The notes beneath the pieces are model-generated. The model ran no database searches, was not told the origin of the DNA, and was given only the letters and a program-made list of their open reading frames with translations. The position numbers were made by a program, and so were the translations under genes. A stretch of DNA of 64,000 nt. Source: an uncultured Desulfosarcina sp. (lineage in GTDB: Bacteria > Desulfobacterota > Desulfobacteria > Desulfobacterales > Desulfosarcinaceae). The stretch covers positions 1,426,001-1,490,000 of the forward strand of contig NZ_OY764190.1 in NCBI RefSeq assembly GCF_963668215.1, written 5' to 3'. This document shows positions 53,981 to 64,000 of the stretch, in pieces. Each line of letters opens with the position of its first letter. Position 1 is the first letter of the stretch.

Positions 53981-54298
53981 ATGTATCTTCCCCAGGTCTA
54001 CCAGAAATTCCAGGAACGGTTCCCTGAAGTCTTCAACCATTTCAAACAGCTCGGCAAGGCAACCCGGGAGGCGGGGCCCCTGGACGAGAAAACCCAGGAC
54101 CTGATCAAATTGGGCATCGCTGCGGGGGCAAACTCGCGTGGGGGCGTGATGTCGAATACCCGCAAGGCCATGGCTGCCGGCGCAACGGTTGAAGAGGTAG
54201 AACATGCCATTCTTCTGGCAATGACCACAACCGGCTTTCCCAACACGATTGCGGCTTTGAGTTGGGTGCAGGAGGTGCTGGCGGAAACGAAAGGCTGA
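53981..54298 (+). CDS. Carboxymuconolactone-decarboxylase-family protein without CxxC
   Basis: A 105-residue CMD-fold protein (LDEKTQDLIKLGIAAGANSR, then NTRKAMAAGATVEEVEHAIL). AhpD-type members have CxxC and a histidine in the loop; here the matching residues are non-cysteine (GANSRGGVMSN), so a peroxidase/disulfide role is doubtful. AAAGGAG precedes the ATG. It is the last gene of a binding-protein/kinase/CMD unit. A decayed second copy exists at 57390-57535. Confidence 0.85.
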   Translation: MYLPQVYQKFQERFPEVFNHFKQLGKATREAGPLDEKTQDLIKLGIAAGANSRGGVMSNTRKAMAAGATVEEVEHAILLAMTTTGFPNTIAALSWVQEVLAETKG

Positions 54299-57134: not shown

Positions 57135-57389
57135 CTTAGTCACAAAAGTTGGATAAAGTTCACCTGAGCCGGCATTTATGCCACCCCTATTTTTGTTTGC
57201 ACCAATCTCCACTATCGTCAAGTTGGGTCATTCTATAAAGTTGGAAGCAAACGAATGTTTCAAGCTACCACATAATATGTCGTTCATTCAACCAATCCTT
57301 GTTCGGTATATCCAAGGCAAAAAATAGAACCCGATCAATTTTAGGCAAGACGCTTCCATCTACACGCGGTATTTGTGTTCACTCTCGCA

Positions 57390-57540
57390 GTAAAGGTATT
57401 CAAGGAAGGCACGGCCGCTTGATGAAGAACGCAGTACTTGATCAAATTGGGTATCGCTGCTGATGGAAACGCGTATGAAGAGCGATGTCGAATGGCCGTA
57501 AAGCCATGGCTGCCGGTGCAACGGTTGAACCAGCATTGGT
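57390..57540 (+). pseudogene. Decayed CMD-family gene fragment
   Basis: In the plus strand, one frame gives QYLIKLGIAADGN and, after a frame change, RKAMAAGATVE; the intact gene at 53981 reads QDLIKLGIAAGAN and RKAMAAGATVE. The fragment has stops ahead of it and no start. So a second copy of the CMD gene once existed here and has decayed. No other gene is seen in 57135-57572. Confidence 0.7.
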
Positions 57541-57572: not shown

Positions 57573-57929
57573 TTACTTCCGCTCGTCGTTTGGGTTAAAA
57601 CCCGGCATGTAGAATTTCGGTGTATCCAGGCAGCCACCCAAATACGCCGATAGCACGTCCTCGACCTCGCCGGCGATTCCGTTGGTCAATTCGATCTTGA
57701 CGCGCTTGAGAATTTTCCCGAAAGCCTCGCTGATACCACCACAAATAATAACGGAAACTCCCAGATTTTCGAAAATACGACACCTTTCATTCAAGGTCAT
57801 ATTGTCGAGGAAGATACTTTCGCGACCGACTTCAGATCCATTTTTACAATTGATCACCAGCATATGCTTGCATGTATCAAATACCGGTGATACCCGCTTT
57901 TGAAATGTCGGGATGGCAATCTTTGTCAT
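57573..57929 (-). CDS. NifX/NifB-C-terminal-like dinitrogenase cofactor-family protein
   Basis: A 118-residue protein of the DiNase_FeMo-co fold: KIAIPTFQKRVSPVFDTCKH, GRESIFLDNMTLNERCRIFE, LGVSVIICGGISEAF and a tail. Such proteins carry metal clusters or small redox cofactors, not only in nitrogen fixation. No nif genes are in the window. It is the last gene of a six-gene minus-strand run from 62033. It starts 68 bases after the previous gene. Confidence 0.85.
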   Translation of the reverse strand: MTKIAIPTFQKRVSPVFDTCKHMLVINCKNGSEVGRESIFLDNMTLNERCRIFENLGVSVIICGGISEAFGKILKRVKIELTNGIAGEVEDVLSAYLGGCLDTPKFYMPGFNPNDERK

Positions 57930-57997
57930 TTTAAAGAGTCTTTATTCTTAGCGCAAATAGCATTTGTATTTGCACGCTATTCATAAAGTTACTTTTA

Positions 57998-58903
57998 TCA
58001 GTGACAGCCGCAGGACGAGGCTAATTCGGACACATAGTGCCTATGCGCAAGGGACCACCAATTCTTGTTGATGGTTATCGGCAGGTTTCCATCCACTTCT
58101 TCATCATGAAAATGACCACAGGGAAATGTTCGCTTGTAGAAAGGCGCTTCTCCGCATTCTTCGATATCGAACTGCATGGGTTCAGTATTTATCTGCTCAT
58201 AACAATCAGCTACGGCATAATGGACGGTCAACCTGTAACCGTTGATGGCTTTATTCAGTTGGGCACTCACTTTGCCACGTTCTATAATGACTTCAAAACC
58301 TGGTGTTCTGGAACATTGAACCTGAACGGGTGCCTGTTTGCCGGCATTGGCATACAGGCACATTAAACAGTCAAACAAGGGGTAAGCGATTTCCAATCCC
58401 GGTATGTCCCGATCGATCTCGTCCACGACAAACTTTCGGGCAATATCCAGGACGGGAAAGGTCTGATTAGTCTTAGAAGCATAGCGGCTTCGGAGGATGT
58501 CCAGCGTCTCAACACAGAAGCTGGACATATTTGCCTCGTCATCCATAGTAATTGTAAGCACCGCTACATTAAAAAGATCCGAAGGAATTTTTTCCCTGCA
58601 CTCAAAAACCGGTGTATGTGTTTCATCGAAAAAGCGACTTTGAATAAGTTTTTGTTCAACGAAAGAAAACGATGAATAACATGCGCCATCAGGATACGGA
58701 TAACATTTGACGGCAAAAGCGGCTTTATAGAAATTCTTACCTTTGTGTTTCTTTTCTTCGGTTTCTATGAGCGCCAAATGATAAACACCGGGTGCATCAG
58801 CCAGCCAGATGTACCACGCAGGCGGGCCTCCCCACACCTGGCTGAAAGCCTTCAGACCGACATCGGCCCTGAATTGCTCGCTCCAGGACGAAACAATCAG
58901 CAT
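57998..58903 (-). CDS. Unknown protein, Cys/His-rich C-terminus
   Basis: A 301-residue soluble protein I do not recognise. Cysteines are scattered (AVKCYPYPDGACYSSFSF, FDCLMCLYANAGK, QVQCSRTPGF, VADCYEQ, FPCGHFHDEE) and the C-terminus ends SELASSCGCH, a possible metal or cluster site. There is no signal peptide or membrane helix. It sits between two other genes of the sigma-54 operon, 40 bases after the small Arg-rich protein. Adjacent metal-linked genes (NifX-like, MBL-fold) suggest a redox or metal role. Confidence 0.55.
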   Translation of the reverse strand: MLIVSSWSEQFRADVGLKAFSQVWGGPPAWYIWLADAPGVYHLALIETEEKKHKGKNFYKAAFAVKCYPYPDGACYSSFSFVEQKLIQSRFFDETHTPVFECREKIPSDLFNVAVLTITMDDEANMSSFCVETLDILRSRYASKTNQTFPVLDIARKFVVDEIDRDIPGLEIAYPLFDCLMCLYANAGKQAPVQVQCSRTPGFEVIIERGKVSAQLNKAINGYRLTVHYAVADCYEQINTEPMQFDIEECGEAPFYKRTFPCGHFHDEEVDGNLPITINKNWWSLAHRHYVSELASSCGCH

Positions 58904-58943
58904 CCCTTCGATCCGACTTCTGAAAAAGCTTTCGAGTTCGATA

Positions 58944-59216
58944 TTAAAATCCTCCTTTTTTAATGAAAAGTTCTTTCACGATATCTTTTTTCGGACGGCC
59001 TTCTGTTTCGATATCGTACTTTCTCGCGGTTTCAAGCAAAATATCATCCGGATACGCCAGTGTCAGGGCATAGCTCGATTCATAGGAATCGAAGAATTGG
59101 TCGAACTCGGCTTTCTGTCGCGCCTCCTCCAAGCCGTCTTCAAATCCCTGCAAACACCGACCCGCCTGATGCAGAAAATATTTGCTCAAAAACCGCCGTC
59201 TGCCGCTATCCGTCAT
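58944..59216 (-). CDS. Small protein of unknown function (90 residues)
   Basis: MTDSGRRRFLSKYFLHQAGR begins with an RRRFL motif like the start of a twin-arginine signal or of 4Fe-4S maturation proteins, but no hydrophobic core follows, so export is unlikely. The remainder (EFDQFFDSYESSYALTLAYP) is helical and acidic. It starts 12 bases after the membrane-protein stop. It could be a dedicated chaperone for the Tat-exported enzyme encoded upstream. Confidence 0.55.
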   Translation of the reverse strand: MTDSGRRRFLSKYFLHQAGRCLQGFEDGLEEARQKAEFDQFFDSYESSYALTLAYPDDILLETARKYDIETEGRPKKDIVKELFIKKGGF

Positions 59217-59228
59217 GGTTCAGCCTGT

Positions 59229-60452
59229 CTACTTCTTTCTTTTTAACGGCCATCCATCAAAGAATTCGCTCTGTATCAGAATGATACTTAAAAACAGCAA
59301 TGCCCAAACCAGCGGAGTATCCCCCGGTTGGGCAAAACCTTCCACTTTGGCCAGAAAAAAGGTGGCCAGCGGTGAATAGTAAAACCAGTAAATGAGCAAT
59401 CCCAGGACAACAGCGATGATACTTCGGATCAGAGCCCGCAGCCACAGGCTGTCAAAGTTGGGGAAATTGTTAAAATAGTTTTTCCAGATAAATGCCGCTA
59501 AAACAAAAAAACCGGCAATTTCACCGGCGTGGATATATCGCCAGTCCGGGCCGTCGGTATATTGACCGCCCACAAACGGCTCCATCCACACATAATTAAA
59601 AATCATCAGCAGAATAAATATCAGGATGATGCCTAAGGTCAGGGTGCTGAAAAATACGGCAAAACCTTTGCCGAACGTGCTTTCACCGTCCACTTCATAC
59701 CGGTCCCATGGTTTGCCCTCCCATAGAAGATCGGAAAAGACGATCCAGACAAGCGTACACAAAATGAGCCCCAGGCTGAAAAACGCGCTGCCGGTACCGG
59801 CCAATTCCTCCCACCAGGGAGTCACGGCAGCTTTATCCTGCGCGGGATAAAAAAGATAGCAGACATGGGAATGGAATAGAAAAATATAGAAAAGCACTGT
59901 AAAAAAAACGATGGCAAATAACTTGGACCATGCCTGTACGCCATAAGTGTCCTTCTGCCAGGGCCAGCGTCCGAAACCAAGACCCCAGAACAGCGCCATC
60001 CAAAGAAATGCTGTAAAAAAATAGACAATGGCCGTGGAGGCGTTTTCGCGCGCCACAAAAGGCTCCGCCCCAATGCCGCCGGAAGCCACAATAGAATCCG
60101 GACTGAAATAGGCGATACCGAATTTTCCGATAAACCCCCAGAAAACGATGTAATTCAACCCGATCATTAATAAAAAAGCGATGATTGTCAGCAGTATCCC
60201 TTTGGCGATGGGGTTGTCTTTCTGGGATAGTCGATTATACCATGCAGGCCATTCCAGAACCTTTGCCATGAGAATAATGCCCGACAGAAATACCACGATC
60301 AATGAAAAGCCATACATGGGCGTATATAATTTCATGACCGTGTTTGGATTCATAAAAATATACCAGAGGAACCATACGATCAAAAACACGGCAACGAGAT
60401 TAACCAGTCCGAAAAAATAGTTGAATTTGAAATCCGAACTCTCCTCGGTCAT
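59229..60452 (-). CDS. Ten-helix membrane protein of unknown function
   Basis: A 407-residue polytopic protein with about ten helices, for example LVNLVAVFLIVWFLWYIFM, FTAFLWMALFWGLGFGRWPW, FAVFFSTLTLGIILIFILLM and TPLVWALLFLSIILIQSEFF. Tryptophan-rich loops and a few histidines (FLFHSHVCYLFYPAQDK, WRYIHAGEIAGFF) could bind haem or quinone. I find no resemblance to a known transporter family. GGAAGGAGG lies ahead of the ATG. It is third in the run after the cytochrome and MBL-fold genes, so it may be their membrane electron or substrate partner. Confidence 0.7.
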   Translation of the reverse strand: MTEESSDFKFNYFFGLVNLVAVFLIVWFLWYIFMNPNTVMKLYTPMYGFSLIVVFLSGIILMAKVLEWPAWYNRLSQKDNPIAKGILLTIIAFLLMIGLNYIVFWGFIGKFGIAYFSPDSIVASGGIGAEPFVARENASTAIVYFFTAFLWMALFWGLGFGRWPWQKDTYGVQAWSKLFAIVFFTVLFYIFLFHSHVCYLFYPAQDKAAVTPWWEELAGTGSAFFSLGLILCTLVWIVFSDLLWEGKPWDRYEVDGESTFGKGFAVFFSTLTLGIILIFILLMIFNYVWMEPFVGGQYTDGPDWRYIHAGEIAGFFVLAAFIWKNYFNNFPNFDSLWLRALIRSIIAVVLGLLIYWFYYSPLATFFLAKVEGFAQPGDTPLVWALLFLSIILIQSEFFDGWPLKRKK

Positions 60453-60476
60453 ACAAACCTCCTTCCGCTATTAGGG

Positions 60477-60512
60477 AAAAAAGGGGAGCCTTGGGATAGG
60501 ACATCCCCTTTC
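60477..60512 (-). terminator. Intrinsic terminator inside the operon
   Basis: On the minus strand AAAGGGGA and TCCCCTTT pair around a loop of about 15 bases, followed by TTTTTTCCC. It lies between the MBL-fold gene (ends 60554) and the membrane protein gene (starts 60452), so downstream genes would be transcribed at a lower level, or from another promoter. Confidence 0.7.
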
Positions 60513-60553
60513 TCTCCATCCCACCACATTGACCCTAAAGGCAGAGCGAATGA

Positions 60554-61651
60554 TCAGAACGTGACTGTATCCCCATTGGTGAGGAAAACATTGCTGGCTT
60601 TGGCCACCGTTGAAAATTTCTTGTAGGATTTATATTTATCCGTTCCTTTTACAACCGGAACGCCAGAAGCGGCCGCCTTTTCAGCCCATATCCAGCCGGT
60701 GCAGTGGTTGCATCCGAGCTTTTCAATCTTGAATGACTTAACGCCTTTGATGATATCGTCAAATTTGGGATCCCAGGTCTCAAACAGACTGATGTGCAGG
60801 CCGCCATAGCAACCATAGGGTTTGTATCCCTGGAAGTTCCGCCTCGCATAGGAAAACAGTGAAAGAATTCCGGGATGGCAGCAACCGGTTACCGTAACCA
60901 CGCCTTTGTCTTTTACGTTAAAATAGAGCACGTTTTCGCCCCGCACCCTCAAAAGAATCGGCACATCGAAATTTCGAACCGCCACACCGGGCATCAACCG
61001 ATAAATGCCTTCGCCGTTTTCACCTTTGGGGTCGCACAGTACCAGTTTCCCCGTATGAGGATAATCGTTCTTGCAGATATGATCCATCTGGCCCGTTTCT
61101 TTGTTCTTTGCTGTGTGATGGGCCTTGTCCTTCAGCAGCGCCATATCTTCAGGGTAGTAGGTTGCCGGCGCATACAAAGTGATATCCTGCTTGCGTTTCA
61201 AGGTGGATTCGACGCCCCAGTAGTGATCCAGATGCCAGTGCGAAAGAACCCAGAATTCGATTTCATCTTTGCTGATCAAGGAGGCGACATCGCTTTTTTC
61301 TTCGTAAATATAATCCATCCACTCATTGTTCCAGCCGAAGTCCATCATGAATTTGCGTTCCTGGCCTTCAAGTGTGGTGACCGTAATCAAAACCGCATAC
61401 CCACCGGCATTGTCCCATTTCCAGGGAATCGTGTATTGATTGGTCATGGCCCCGCCGTAATCCATGATATCCTTTTTGAAAACATCGTTGTCGAACCAGC
61501 TCGTTTCCGTCAACACATCAATTTTAAGTCCCTTAATTTCACCGATATCCAGCTTTTTGGCTGCTTCAGCAGGACTTGGAATCACAGCCCCTGTCATGGA
61601 AGAGGCTATCCCGGTGGCCGCCATTGATTTAAGAAAAGTTCTTCGTTTCAT
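60554..61651 (-). CDS. Tat-exported metallo-beta-lactamase-fold enzyme
   Basis: A 365-residue protein. MKRRTFLKSMAATGIASSMT is a twin-arginine signal, with cleavage near AEA at about residue 31. The MBL metal motif SHWHLDHYWG is near residue 137; further ligands lie in VTGCCHPGILSLF and NHCTGWIWAEKA. The arrangement resembles the YhfI/PqsE-like and methanopterin-related MBL groups rather than beta-lactamases. Periplasmic hydrolysis or oxidation of a small substrate is likely. AAGGAG is upstream. It starts 49 bases after the cytochrome gene. Confidence 0.85.
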   Translation of the reverse strand: MKRRTFLKSMAATGIASSMTGAVIPSPAEAAKKLDIGEIKGLKIDVLTETSWFDNDVFKKDIMDYGGAMTNQYTIPWKWDNAGGYAVLITVTTLEGQERKFMMDFGWNNEWMDYIYEEKSDVASLISKDEIEFWVLSHWHLDHYWGVESTLKRKQDITLYAPATYYPEDMALLKDKAHHTAKNKETGQMDHICKNDYPHTGKLVLCDPKGENGEGIYRLMPGVAVRNFDVPILLRVRGENVLYFNVKDKGVVTVTGCCHPGILSLFSYARRNFQGYKPYGCYGGLHISLFETWDPKFDDIIKGVKSFKIEKLGCNHCTGWIWAEKAAASGVPVVKGTDKYKSYKKFSTVAKASNVFLTNGDTVTF

Positions 61652-61700
61652 GAGTTCTCCTTTTCAAGTAAGAATAAATGATATCTGTGGCCTATTTTAT

Positions 61701-62033
61701 TTATCCAGCTTCTCTTTCCATGCCCTTTCTGAGATCGTAAAGCAGGTCGATAATCATATCCGCTTCATCTGCTGTCAGATCCATGCCGTATTTGTGCATG
61801 ACGTTGACCACAAGGTGCCAATCATCGCGTGTACGACCCGGTTTTTCGGGATCGGCGACCGAGTCGTGGCAGCCAAGGCATTTTTTTGCATAAACGGCGA
61901 ACGCCTGCTTATGGGCAACAGACTTACTTTTTGCCATGCTCTGATTCGCCACGATGCAAAGTCCCCCCAGCAAAAAAAGCGCACAAATAAAAAAAGTGGA
62001 TACCCTCCACCAATCCATATGCCTTTTCTTCAT
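61701..62033 (-). CDS. Small c-type cytochrome
   Basis: A 110-residue protein. VSTFFICALFLLGGLCIVAN is an N-terminal anchor or signal. One haem-binding site is visible, KKCLGCHDSV near residue 54, then a helical C-terminus with a likely Met ligand (AVNVMHKYGMDLTADEADMI). It is periplasmic. First gene of the sigma-54 operon; AAGAGGAGGG precedes the ATG. It could be the electron acceptor for the MBL enzyme encoded next. Confidence 0.85.
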   Translation of the reverse strand: MKKRHMDWWRVSTFFICALFLLGGLCIVANQSMAKSKSVAHKQAFAVYAKKCLGCHDSVADPEKPGRTRDDWHLVVNVMHKYGMDLTADEADMIIDLLYDLRKGMEREAG

Positions 62034-62175
62034 AAAGCCCTCCTCTTTCCTTTTCCCTGTTTGGGCTGCAAGAAATTTTGAGCTGAAACCACCTTGCAGC
62101 TTTTTAAAACGAAATGTTCGGGGGTGAAAAATGGTGTGAAATGTAATGATAGTTCTATTCGAGAAGATTAATGGG

Positions 62176-62190
62176 GCAAAATGTGTTCCA
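62176..62190 (-). promoter_or_regulatory. Sigma-54 promoter ahead of the cytochrome operon
   Basis: The minus strand reads TGGAACA-CATT-TTGC, matching the -24/-12 consensus TGGCACG-N4-TTGC at nine of eleven fixed positions, with GG and GC ten bases apart. It lies 143 bases ahead of the cytochrome ATG. A 14-bp perfect AT palindrome (TTATAATATTATAA, 62221-62234) is upstream and could be an activator site. Confidence 0.75.
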
Positions 62191-62248
62191 ATATATGCAA
62201 ATTTAATATTTTTTTAATTATTATAATATTATAAAGCTAATTTATTAT

Positions 62249-62276
62249 TTGACAGGTATTTGCTTTCTGTGATTAT
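62249..62276 (+). promoter_or_regulatory. Possible sigma-70 promoter of the activator gene
   Basis: TTGACA (62249-62254) and GATTAT (62271-62276) are 16 bases apart, about 95 bases ahead of the regulator ATG. The -35 is consensus, the -10 four of six. Confidence 0.4.
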
Positions 62277-62370
62277 TAAGGCGAAAGTAGAACAAAATGC
62301 AGCTATTTTATGTGCGGTAGGTACCAATTTGCACCTGTTGGCAAACCATCAGCGGAAAGGACGCAACAGT

Positions 62371-63714
62371 ATGTTCGAGTTGGACAAGCCTTTTCCCAGA
62401 TTGTATCGAAGCATCCTGGATTCCATCGCCGATGGTGTCTATACGGTTGATTTGAACTGGCGGGTGACGTCTTTCAACAAAGCCGCCGAAAGGATCACCG
62501 GGATCAGAAATGAAGAGGCGATCGGGCGCAAGTGTTTCGAAGTGCTTCGAAGCAGTATGTGCGAAGATCAGTGCATCCTGAAACAGGTCATGGAAGACCG
62601 AAAAACCGTTCCTAACCGCCCAATTTACATTATCCGTGCCGATCAGAAACAAATTCCCATTAACATGACGACCGGTATTTTAAAAAATGCAGAAAACCGG
62701 ATCATCGGCGGTGTGATGTCCTTCCGAGATTTATCCGACATCAATACGCTTCATAAAGAACTCCAAAAGCAGCATACGTTTGAAGACATCATTAGTAAAA
62801 ACAAGCAAATGCAAAAAATTTTCTCAATTCTCCCCCAAATCGCCCAAAGCAGGAGCACGGTTTTGATCGAAGGGGAAAGCGGCACCGGAAAAGAACTTGT
62901 TGCGCGGGCGATTCATAATAACAGCTTCCAGGCAAAAGGCCCTTTTGTGGCTGTGAACTGCAGTGCATTACCGGACAGTCTGTTTGAGTCCGAATTGTTC
63001 GGATATAAGGTCGGCGCCTTTACGGACGCTAAAAAAGACAAACCCGGTCGGTTCGACCAGGCTCAGAAGGGAACAATTTTATTGGATGAAATCGGTGATA
63101 TCTCTTTGGCTGTTCAAGCCAAATTGCTTCGTGTATTGGAACAAAAAATATACGAGCCCCTGGGTTCTGTCGAACCGGTTCACACCAATGCCAGGGTTAT
63201 TGCCGCCACTCACCATAACCTGTATCAAATGGTGCAGAACAGAAACTTCCGGGAAGATCTGTATTATCGCATCAACGTTGTCCGGCTGGCATTACCGCCG
63301 CTACGGGACCGCAAAGAAGATATCCCGTCGCTGATCGATCATTTCATTGAGCGATTCAATGTTCTCAATGGGAAAGAGATATTGGGCGTATCACAGGAGG
63401 CCTTGGCCTTGCTGATGTTATACGATTGGCAAGGAAATGTGAGAGAACTCGAAAATACCATCGAGCATGCTTTTGTCATGTGCCGTGAAAAGCTCATTCG
63501 CCGAGAGCACCTGCCAGGTAGGTTTTTGCCGTTAGACAAAAAAATTCAAGGCCCTCCCAGCCGGGTGCTGAAGGATATCGAAAAAGAAGCCATTACCCAG
63601 GCACTGGAGCGAAACCAATGGAACAAAAGCAAAACAGCAAGAGAACTCGGCATTCATAAAAATACATTGCGACGCAAAATAATCCGGTTTAACGTCTCAG
63701 AAAATCAAGAATAG
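62371..63714 (+). CDS. Sigma-54-dependent activator, PAS-AAA+-Fis
   Basis: A 447-residue enhancer-binding protein. A PAS domain (about 10-125) begins RSILDSIADGVYTVDLNW. The AAA+ domain (about 150-390) has Walker A GESGTGKELVARAIH, the sigma-54 contact loop as GAFTDA, Walker B GTILLDEIGD and the R-fingers. The C-terminal Fis-type HTH is ARELGIHKNTLRRKI. In most relatives the loop is GAFTGA; GAFTDA is a recurrent variant. ATG 62371 has GGAAAGGA upstream; a TTG at 62260 is unlikely. It is divergent from the sigma-54 promoter and operon, and so is the expected activator. Confidence 0.92.
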   Translation: MFELDKPFPRLYRSILDSIADGVYTVDLNWRVTSFNKAAERITGIRNEEAIGRKCFEVLRSSMCEDQCILKQVMEDRKTVPNRPIYIIRADQKQIPINMTTGILKNAENRIIGGVMSFRDLSDINTLHKELQKQHTFEDIISKNKQMQKIFSILPQIAQSRSTVLIEGESGTGKELVARAIHNNSFQAKGPFVAVNCSALPDSLFESELFGYKVGAFTDAKKDKPGRFDQAQKGTILLDEIGDISLAVQAKLLRVLEQKIYEPLGSVEPVHTNARVIAATHHNLYQMVQNRNFREDLYYRINVVRLALPPLRDRKEDIPSLIDHFIERFNVLNGKEILGVSQEALALLMLYDWQGNVRELENTIEHAFVMCREKLIRREHLPGRFLPLDKKIQGPPSRVLKDIEKEAITQALERNQWNKSKTARELGIHKNTLRRKIIRFNVSENQE

Positions 63715-63734: not shown

Positions 63735-64000
63735 TCACGCCGCCGCCGTTCCGGCGCCCAAAACATGCGTGAATCCCTTCTCGGAAGCCATCAGATCCAG
63801 ATGCAGGGAAACCACCTGCTCCAGGGGAGGGAAAAAGACGCGCTCCAGTTTGCGGGTATCCACGACCTTCAGATAATGCCGGCAGGCATTGCACAGGTAC
63901 ACGCGGTACTCGGGTTCATTCTCGCTGTAAAGGTATTCCAGGGAGGCGCTGTCCCGGTTGCCGCAAAACAGGCAAACCATGCGCTCGACCGGCCAGCGAT
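63735..64000 (-). CDS. fdhE: FdhE-like protein, N-terminus beyond window
   Basis: The frame is open to the right edge, so the start is not visible. It continues upstream of a Met at 63980 with RWPVER, then CLFCGNRDSASLEYLYSEN, YRVYLCNACRHYLKVVDTRK and QVVSLHLDLMASEKGF. This matches the C-terminal half of FdhE, which helps assemble or activate formate dehydrogenase; the CxxC pairs bind iron. It converges on the sigma-54 activator gene. A formate dehydrogenase operon is probably to the right. Confidence 0.8.
   Translation of the reverse strand, partial: RWPVERMVCLFCGNRDSASLEYLYSENEPEYRVYLCNACRHYLKVVDTRKLERVFFPPLEQVVSLHLDLMASEKGFTHVLGAGTAAA

Follow-up and report, generated by a model that had tools for sequence, protein, structure and literature searches.

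The DNA analysed here, called the window below, is a 64,000-nt stretch of an uncultured Desulfosarcina sp. (NZ_OY764190.1, GCF_963668215.1; positions 1,426,001-1,490,000 of the forward strand). Our subject is a gene module at 57573-63714, which the listing of open reading frames (ORFs) resolves into six minus-strand ORFs and one divergent plus-strand ORF, and which includes a metallo-beta-lactamase (MBL)-fold enzyme with a twin-arginine translocation (Tat)-type signal and a ten-helix membrane protein. An earlier note on this DNA had described six minus-strand genes running from 62033 to 57573 and a divergently encoded PAS-AAA+-Fis activator, and both coordinates and domains were confirmed, as were the predicted Tat signal on the MBL protein, the CxxCH motif (CLGCH) on the cytochrome and, in an AlphaFold2 model, the ten helices of the membrane protein. 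The features are listed below in window positions; counts refer to 67 loci, namely 66 with an MBL fetched from a species genome collection plus the window.

62260-63714, plus strand: PAS-AAA+-Fis sigma-54 activator (Pfam), divergent to the operon
62190-62175, minus strand: sigma-54 (-24/-12) promoter-like site TGGAACACATTTTGCC, 157 bases upstream of the first gene
61701-62033, minus strand: small c-type cytochrome, 110 aa, one CxxCH (CLGCH); optional, 22/67 loci
60554-61651, minus strand: MBL-fold enzyme with Tat-type signal, 365 aa, motifs HxHxDH, GCCHPG, GGLH and NHCTG; core gene
59229-60452, minus strand: ten-helix membrane protein, 407 aa, no Pfam family; core gene
58944-59216, minus strand: p90, 90 aa, Tat-like start; core gene, 56/67 loci
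57998-58903, minus strand: p301, 301 aa, terminal Cys/His tail (SCGCH); core gene, 61/67 loci
57573-57929, minus strand: NifX-like (Nitro_FeMo-Co) protein, 118 aa; optional, 17/67 loci
57361-57529, no strand assigned: remnants found by blastn of the window against itself

What recurs is a core of four genes, encoding the Tat-signal MBL, the ten-helix protein, p301 and p90, the last three of which returned no Pfam match above cut-off and no NCBIfam match. These genes recur together: the ten-helix gene was present in 63 of the 67 loci, p301 in 61 and p90 in 56. The four loci without a ten-helix gene are two at contig ends (L072 and L074) and two whose MBL has no Tat signal (L038 and L039). Where both p90 and p301 were present (55 loci), the order was mbl-mem-p90-p301 in 41 and mbl-mem-p301-p90 in 14, so the recurring gene order that the earlier note had asked about was found for the core. 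The six-gene set put forward as a unit thus stood for four genes in conserved order, but not for the cytochrome (22/67) and NifX-like (17/67) genes, which are optional. The core is thus shared by many sulfate reducers and related bacteria: most of the fetched loci carry the labels Desulfo-, Syntrophaceae or Deltaproteobacteria, and the labels Rhodoferax, Betaproteobacteria, Nitrospiraceae and Methylomirabilis account for a few.

A ten-helix profile search across 395 genomes of the phylum returned 28 genomes with a match. The MBL gene adjoined the ten-helix gene in all 18 genomes with a close match (at least 275 bits), which hold 19 loci: 11 in which p301 is fused to a GTPase, and 8 with a stand-alone p301, to which this genome contributes both of its copies. 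Nine genomes with matches of 89-130 bits had no MBL beside the gene, and the remaining match (G023) was a contig-end fragment adjoining p90. The MBL (E <= 1e-40) was detected in 41/395 genomes and p301 (E <= 1e-4) in 16/395, the latter count being incomplete, as the p301 profile missed several fusions adjoining an MBL. Occurrence is patchy, with the close form found in 2 of the 24 genomes examined of one family (f93). In G125, the p301-GTPase gene, an activator homologue, a NifX-like gene and p90 share one contig (L154), and the mem and mbl genes lie on another (L119).

The MBL begins with MKRRTFLKSMAATG, a Tat-type signal (Pfam TAT_signal, 15.2 bits, below cut-off), and its HxHxDH metal motif reads SHWHLDHYWG. 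Its PDB relatives are 2p4z, 7dck and 3h3e (profile match to 2p4z, E 5e-18), and it carries all four motifs of the 2p4z/7dck subgroup of MBL-fold hydrolases (HxHxDH, GCxHxG, GGxH and HCxG). The metal motifs are kept among relatives, with H138, H140, D142, H143, C257, H259, G283-G284, H286, H316 and C317 invariant in 28 sequences. Tat signal and membrane gene tend to occur together: judged by a simple rule, a twin-arginine motif followed by a hydrophobic stretch, the signal was present in 77/78 MBLs with a ten-helix gene versus 7/17 without, and in 72/73 versus 7/16 (p = 2e-7) after the removal of repeats (L104, L105, L107, L108 and L110, duplicating L032, L028, L062, L051 and L064, among the 78; L142, duplicating L038, among the 17). 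The MBL is therefore predicted to be an exported metallo-enzyme, in agreement with the periplasmic metallo-enzyme of the earlier note. Sequence identities of the MBL and the ten-helix protein were correlated (r = 0.95 over 53 loci, leaving out the five repeats, L009, the window and the GTPase-fusion loci); the comparison included no unrelated control gene, so shared ancestry alone may account for part of this value.

Some MBL relatives occur in other settings. Those of L038, L039 and L142 (close relatives in the first two) have neither a Tat signal nor a ten-helix partner, and in L142 the gene precedes one for a class-V aminotransferase, which by eye resembles IscS, and another that by eye is IscU-like. 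Among the pointers to organic acids are the neighbours of MBL-only relatives, which include a Liv-type ABC importer (L140), TRAP DctPQ (L146), a GlcD-like FAD oxidase (L136) and an aldehyde dehydrogenase (L149).

AlphaFold2 modelled the ten-helix protein as ten long helices (mean pLDDT 87.7). Its Lys plus Arg residues average approximately 3.0 in the five odd loops versus 9.2 in the even loops and termini, from which both termini are predicted to lie inside and the odd loops in the periplasm. E136 and R305 are invariant and H196 and H308 near-invariant, with all four kept in 13/13 MBL-linked sequences compared; in the model, they sit at helix ends facing the loops poor in Lys and Arg, that is, on the predicted periplasmic side. 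Neither Pfam nor a PDB-sequence search returned a relative, and Foldseek gave no significant match. A JGI label of 'AAT family amino acid transporter' was rejected, having no Pfam support, as was a five-fold hairpin repeat (hhalign of hairpins, <=5.8 % probability).

The clustering of conserved residues on the predicted periplasmic face would suit a protein that serves the MBL as a membrane anchor, an assembly site or a second catalytic subunit, the product then being used by separate transporters; TRAP or ABC importers do lie near some MBL genes, including in the second module of this genome. Ten conserved helices are, however, more than a mere anchor would need, and ten-helix relatives without an MBL adjoin CoA-activating enzymes. 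We consider this role unlikely.

Those relatives are distant homologues (89-130 bits, E 2.5e-25 or better) from 26 loci, 9 from the outset and 17 fetched later (L122-L130 and L163-L179). They are His-rich (HAAEIAG, HHYFDD, HVHW), and two of the nine scanned weakly match PF15420 and no other Pfam family. We counted as neighbours the same-strand genes directly beside the ten-helix gene within 500 bases and typed them by phmmer (E <= 1e-8) against six reference proteins, five of them confirmed by Pfam and the sixth, the AMP-ligase, typed separately; gene calls matching the reference enzymes took priority, in the background just as next to the ten-helix gene. Acyl-CoA enzymes made up 18/21 immediate neighbours versus 54/244 other genes in the loci (p = 8e-9), comprising five AMP-ligases, six family III and three family I CoA-transferases, two thiolases, one acyl-CoA dehydrogenase and one mutase. 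Among the 17 loci added once the reference proteins had been chosen, the count was 10/11. Ligases and transferases, unrelated families that share the task of activating carboxylic acids, account for 14 of the 18. This gene context points to carboxylic acids, and most simply the membrane protein would be what supplies the acid. The earlier suggestion that the system may 'detoxify or oxidise' a small compound gained no support, the contexts of the relatives pointing instead to organic acids. Around the module itself, short-chain dehydrogenase/reductase genes were the sole enriched neighbour type (5 versus 1 among 146 near and 374 other genes, p = 0.008, in four loci; the five repeats and the window left out), and an enrichment of TRAP or GlcD genes was rejected as not significant.

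The first hint to the role of p301 comes from gene fusion. In the branch L111-L121, proteins of 607-692 aa begin with a p301 homologue and continue into a CobW/COG0523-type GTPase, recognized as CobW by Pfam in 5/5 fusions scanned and by the P-loop in the others. A profile comparison by hhalign supports the homology of p301 to the N-terminal domain of these fusions (probability 99.6 %, E 1.3e-24, versus 0.3 % for a reversed control), and 14/15 p301-GTPase fusions examined carry CxCC (10/10 in a first set and 4/5 in a second), the exception being L150, from a genome that gave no ten-helix match. Stand-alone p301 proteins share a C-terminus with an invariant C298 and a C300 that is at least 90 % conserved, reading SCGCH in the window with variants in relatives. 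Because p301 relatives are fused to COG0523/CobW-type GTPases, p301 is probably a metal-loading factor or metal-handling partner. The window protein ends at residue 301 and has no GTPase domain, whereas the fused relatives have a P-loop and, in 14/15, CxCC, making p301 a partner domain rather than a COG0523 member. Its model is confident (mean pLDDT 89.9), and it found no relative in Pfam or PDB-sequence searches and no significant PDB fold match. A metal or cofactor accessory, which the earlier note had seen in the NifX-like protein, is thus likely, but the strongest evidence falls on p301, the NifX-like gene being present in 17/67 loci. The small p90 starts with a Tat-like RRxF(L/F) motif but lacks a hydrophobic segment; the motif was matched by 32/56 homologues, the others often having KRxFF by eye, and p90 may be an assembly factor.

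The COG0523-type fusion, together with the NifX-like gene in 17/67 loci, could also indicate acquisition of a metal or metal complex, in which an outer-membrane receptor would admit the complex, the MBL break the ligand, the ten-helix protein import the metal and p301/COG0523 receive it. A TonB-like gene follows the p301-GTPase gene downstream in four loci (L113, L115, L117 and L118); by clustering, three of these also hold an ExbB-like gene and two an ExbD-like gene. Nevertheless, these are 4 of the 11 fusion-branch loci, and TonB was not among the recurrent neighbours (at least four loci) of the window's branch, although no search was aimed at it there. The regulators seen are of PAS/sigma-54 and GntR type (Fur/Zur-type sites were not searched), and the distant ten-helix relatives adjoin acyl-CoA enzymes, leaving this explanation quite improbable to our minds.

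The cytochrome shows weak Cytochrome_CBB3 and SorB similarity, below cut-offs, and its homologues conserve CxxCH and Arg/Trp positions. The earlier note had placed it in a membrane/cytochrome electron path, and a related view makes the MBL and the ten-helix protein a periplasm-facing metal oxidoreductase passing electrons to a c-type cytochrome. Consistent with this are the presence of the cytochrome near the core in 22/67 loci with its conserved positions, the weak likeness to SorB-type cytochromes, the conserved His and Glu of the ten-helix protein and the likely metal function of p301. On the other hand, a cytochrome of this family was undetected in 45/67 loci (unrelated nearby cytochromes were not sought), including those ordered mbl-mem-p301-p90 and the GTPase-fusion loci L111-L121, and in the PDB the MBL's relatives bear the names of hydrolases or lactamase-domain proteins. 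An electron path was accordingly rejected as the core or common function, and the redox enzyme appears an improbable alternative. In L057, L059, L064, L065 and L072, where the cytochrome was undetected, a small protein of ~109 aa is encoded directly upstream of the MBL; it has a signal-like start by eye and no Pfam family (L064 scanned).

The other optional product matches Nitro_FeMo-Co (PF02579) at 31.1 bits against a cut-off of 26.3. In NCBIfam it matches a single model, the C-terminal part of MrpORP, with a score far under the cut-off.

The divergent activator has the domains of a sigma-54 enhancer-binding protein, namely PAS, Sigma54_activat (224.6 bits) and HTH_8 (56.5 bits) (Pfam); its listed start is TTG, with an alternative ATG possible at ~62371. 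Its PAS domain contains a C-x8-C-x3-C-type motif, kept in 15/23 homologues above 500 bits and also in L154, which could bind a metal or an Fe-S cluster. The score of the window's promoter-like site was reached by 2/200 shuffles. Among relatives, excluding the window and loci with fewer than 150 bases upstream and keeping apart four loci with a same-strand activator, a site scoring at least 12 was found in 13/16 loci with a divergent homologous activator versus 13/42 without a nearby activator (Fisher p = 0.0007). A per-locus shuffle criterion (p <= 0.05), however, gives promoter sites in 6/16 versus 9/42 loci (p = 0.18), and L037, L070 and L074 have an activator yet score below 12. The GG-N10-GC promoter of the earlier note is therefore upheld as a site in the window, with comparative support for sigma-54 control that is mixed and, by the own-shuffle counts, modest. 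A strong activator homologue was near the module in 24/67 loci. A GntR-type regulator lies by the module in L014, L023, L031, L045, L046, L111, L113 and L116-L118 (L113 by Pfam, the rest by clustering), and these loci hold a further protein beside the module; that of L031 has PAS domains, that of L113 no Pfam family.

We tentatively favour, as a possible rather than a firm explanation, a module in which an exported metallo-hydrolase cleaves a small ester- or lactone-type compound in the periplasm and the ten-helix protein imports the released organic acid. The MBL would be metallated in the cytoplasm before export with the help of p301 (and p90), or p301 (with p90) might instead load metal into the Glu/His site of the ten-helix protein before assembly; in some lineages the fused GTPase or the NifX-like protein may assist metal or cluster supply. 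After export by Tat, the MBL would hydrolyse its substrate on the periplasmic side and the membrane protein would take up the acid, with the cytochrome as an optional redox partner. The PAS activator, or a GntR-type regulator in other lineages, could switch the module on upon a substrate or a metal/redox signal, working in the window from the putative sigma-54 promoter. A broader and doubtful proposition would make the ten-helix protein the founder of a family of metal-dependent carboxylate importers of the membrane that has not been described so far. One of its branches would work with CoA-activating enzymes; the other would have joined a metallo-hydrolase exported by Tat, with p301 as a metallochaperone of its own, in a new hydrolyse-and-import machine.

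Several observations weigh against the hydrolysis-and-import explanation. Tat-signal MBLs without a ten-helix gene occur in six loci (L136-L141), besides L072, and the genomes of these six gave no ten-helix profile match, though two of them are <80 % complete. Conversely, G157 and G235 have a p301-GTPase but no ten-helix match; the fusion of G235 lacks CxCC. None of the six PF02492 matches in this genome carries CxCC, so the window p301 has no obvious COG0523 partner; L156, also without CxCC, is HypB-like by eye. Sequence and fold searches revealed no likeness of the ten-helix protein to TRAP or other transporters. As for the distant homologues, 9/26 loci have no same-strand neighbour within 500 bases, the proteins lack H196 and E136 (9/9), and they are 67-89 % identical to the first of them and come from related genomes; their function may therefore differ, and the loci are not independent. 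Beside the module, AMP-ligases (3 versus 1 among the same 146 and 374 genes, p = 0.07) and TRAP DctM (4 versus 3, p = 0.10) were few and CoA-transferases absent, so that carrying the acid link over from the distant branch to the module is an inference.

The surroundings of the module hold two remnants, at 57361-57410 (86 % match to an FdhE-like gene, 63898-63947) and 57404-57529 (77 % match to a small gene at 54066-54193). With FdhE-like sequence on both sides, it looks as if the module was inserted or the locus duplicated. This genome also has a second, diverged copy (L109, C1:2293000-2312000) in the order mbl-mem-p301-p90 at C1:2,300,826-2,304,283, with TRAP DctM/DctP genes nearby.

Literature searches on the gene set found no description of the module, in line with the earlier note, which knew no named pathway for it. 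The main text of PMC2770081 contains neither 'lactamase' nor 'fusion', that of PMC4641369 none of lactamase, CobW or TonB, and passages of PMC4531530 concern matters unrelated to the gene set. A single described pathway covering all the genes was rejected, as there were no family models beyond those named and no such paper was found; as far as our searches show, the module is coherent and undescribed. It joins in one unit four proteins, three of them without a curated family (Pfam/NCBIfam), mainly in Desulfo-/Deltaproteobacteria, and two of them (the ten-helix protein and p301) have confident models without a significant match to a solved fold. First functional hints come from the GTPase fusion in the case of p301 and from neighbouring CoA enzymes in that of the ten-helix family. 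If true, the explanation that we favour would give anaerobes a new route for acquiring an organic compound, and COG0523 metallochaperones a new client.

Elements of the module are reminiscent of known systems. The HxHxDH, G-C-x-H-x-G, G-G-x-H and H-C-x-G motifs of the window MBL align with those of 2p4z and 7dck, metal-dependent hydrolases of beta-lactamase superfamily II, a type that we take to be COG1237. Unlike these, the MBLs described here have a Tat-type signal (77/78 of those linked to the partner) and a ten-helix partner, the comparison not extending to partners of the PDB relatives. The NifX-like protein shares its domain, above the Pfam cut-off, with NifX/NafY-type Nitro_FeMo-Co proteins, but its gene is optional in the module and does not lie beside nitrogenase or ORP genes (stretch examined by eye). 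TRAP-type organic-acid uptake likewise combines a periplasmic step with subsequent import of an organic acid, as would the module, and TRAP genes lie near some modules, although no sequence or fold likeness of the ten-helix protein itself to TRAP was detected. Finally, the COG0523/CobW G3E GTPase metallochaperones include ZigA, CobW and the nitrile hydratase activator (PMC2770081). Homologues of p301 are fused to such a GTPase, whereas the window p301 lacks the GTPase domain and retains its terminal Cys/His tail.

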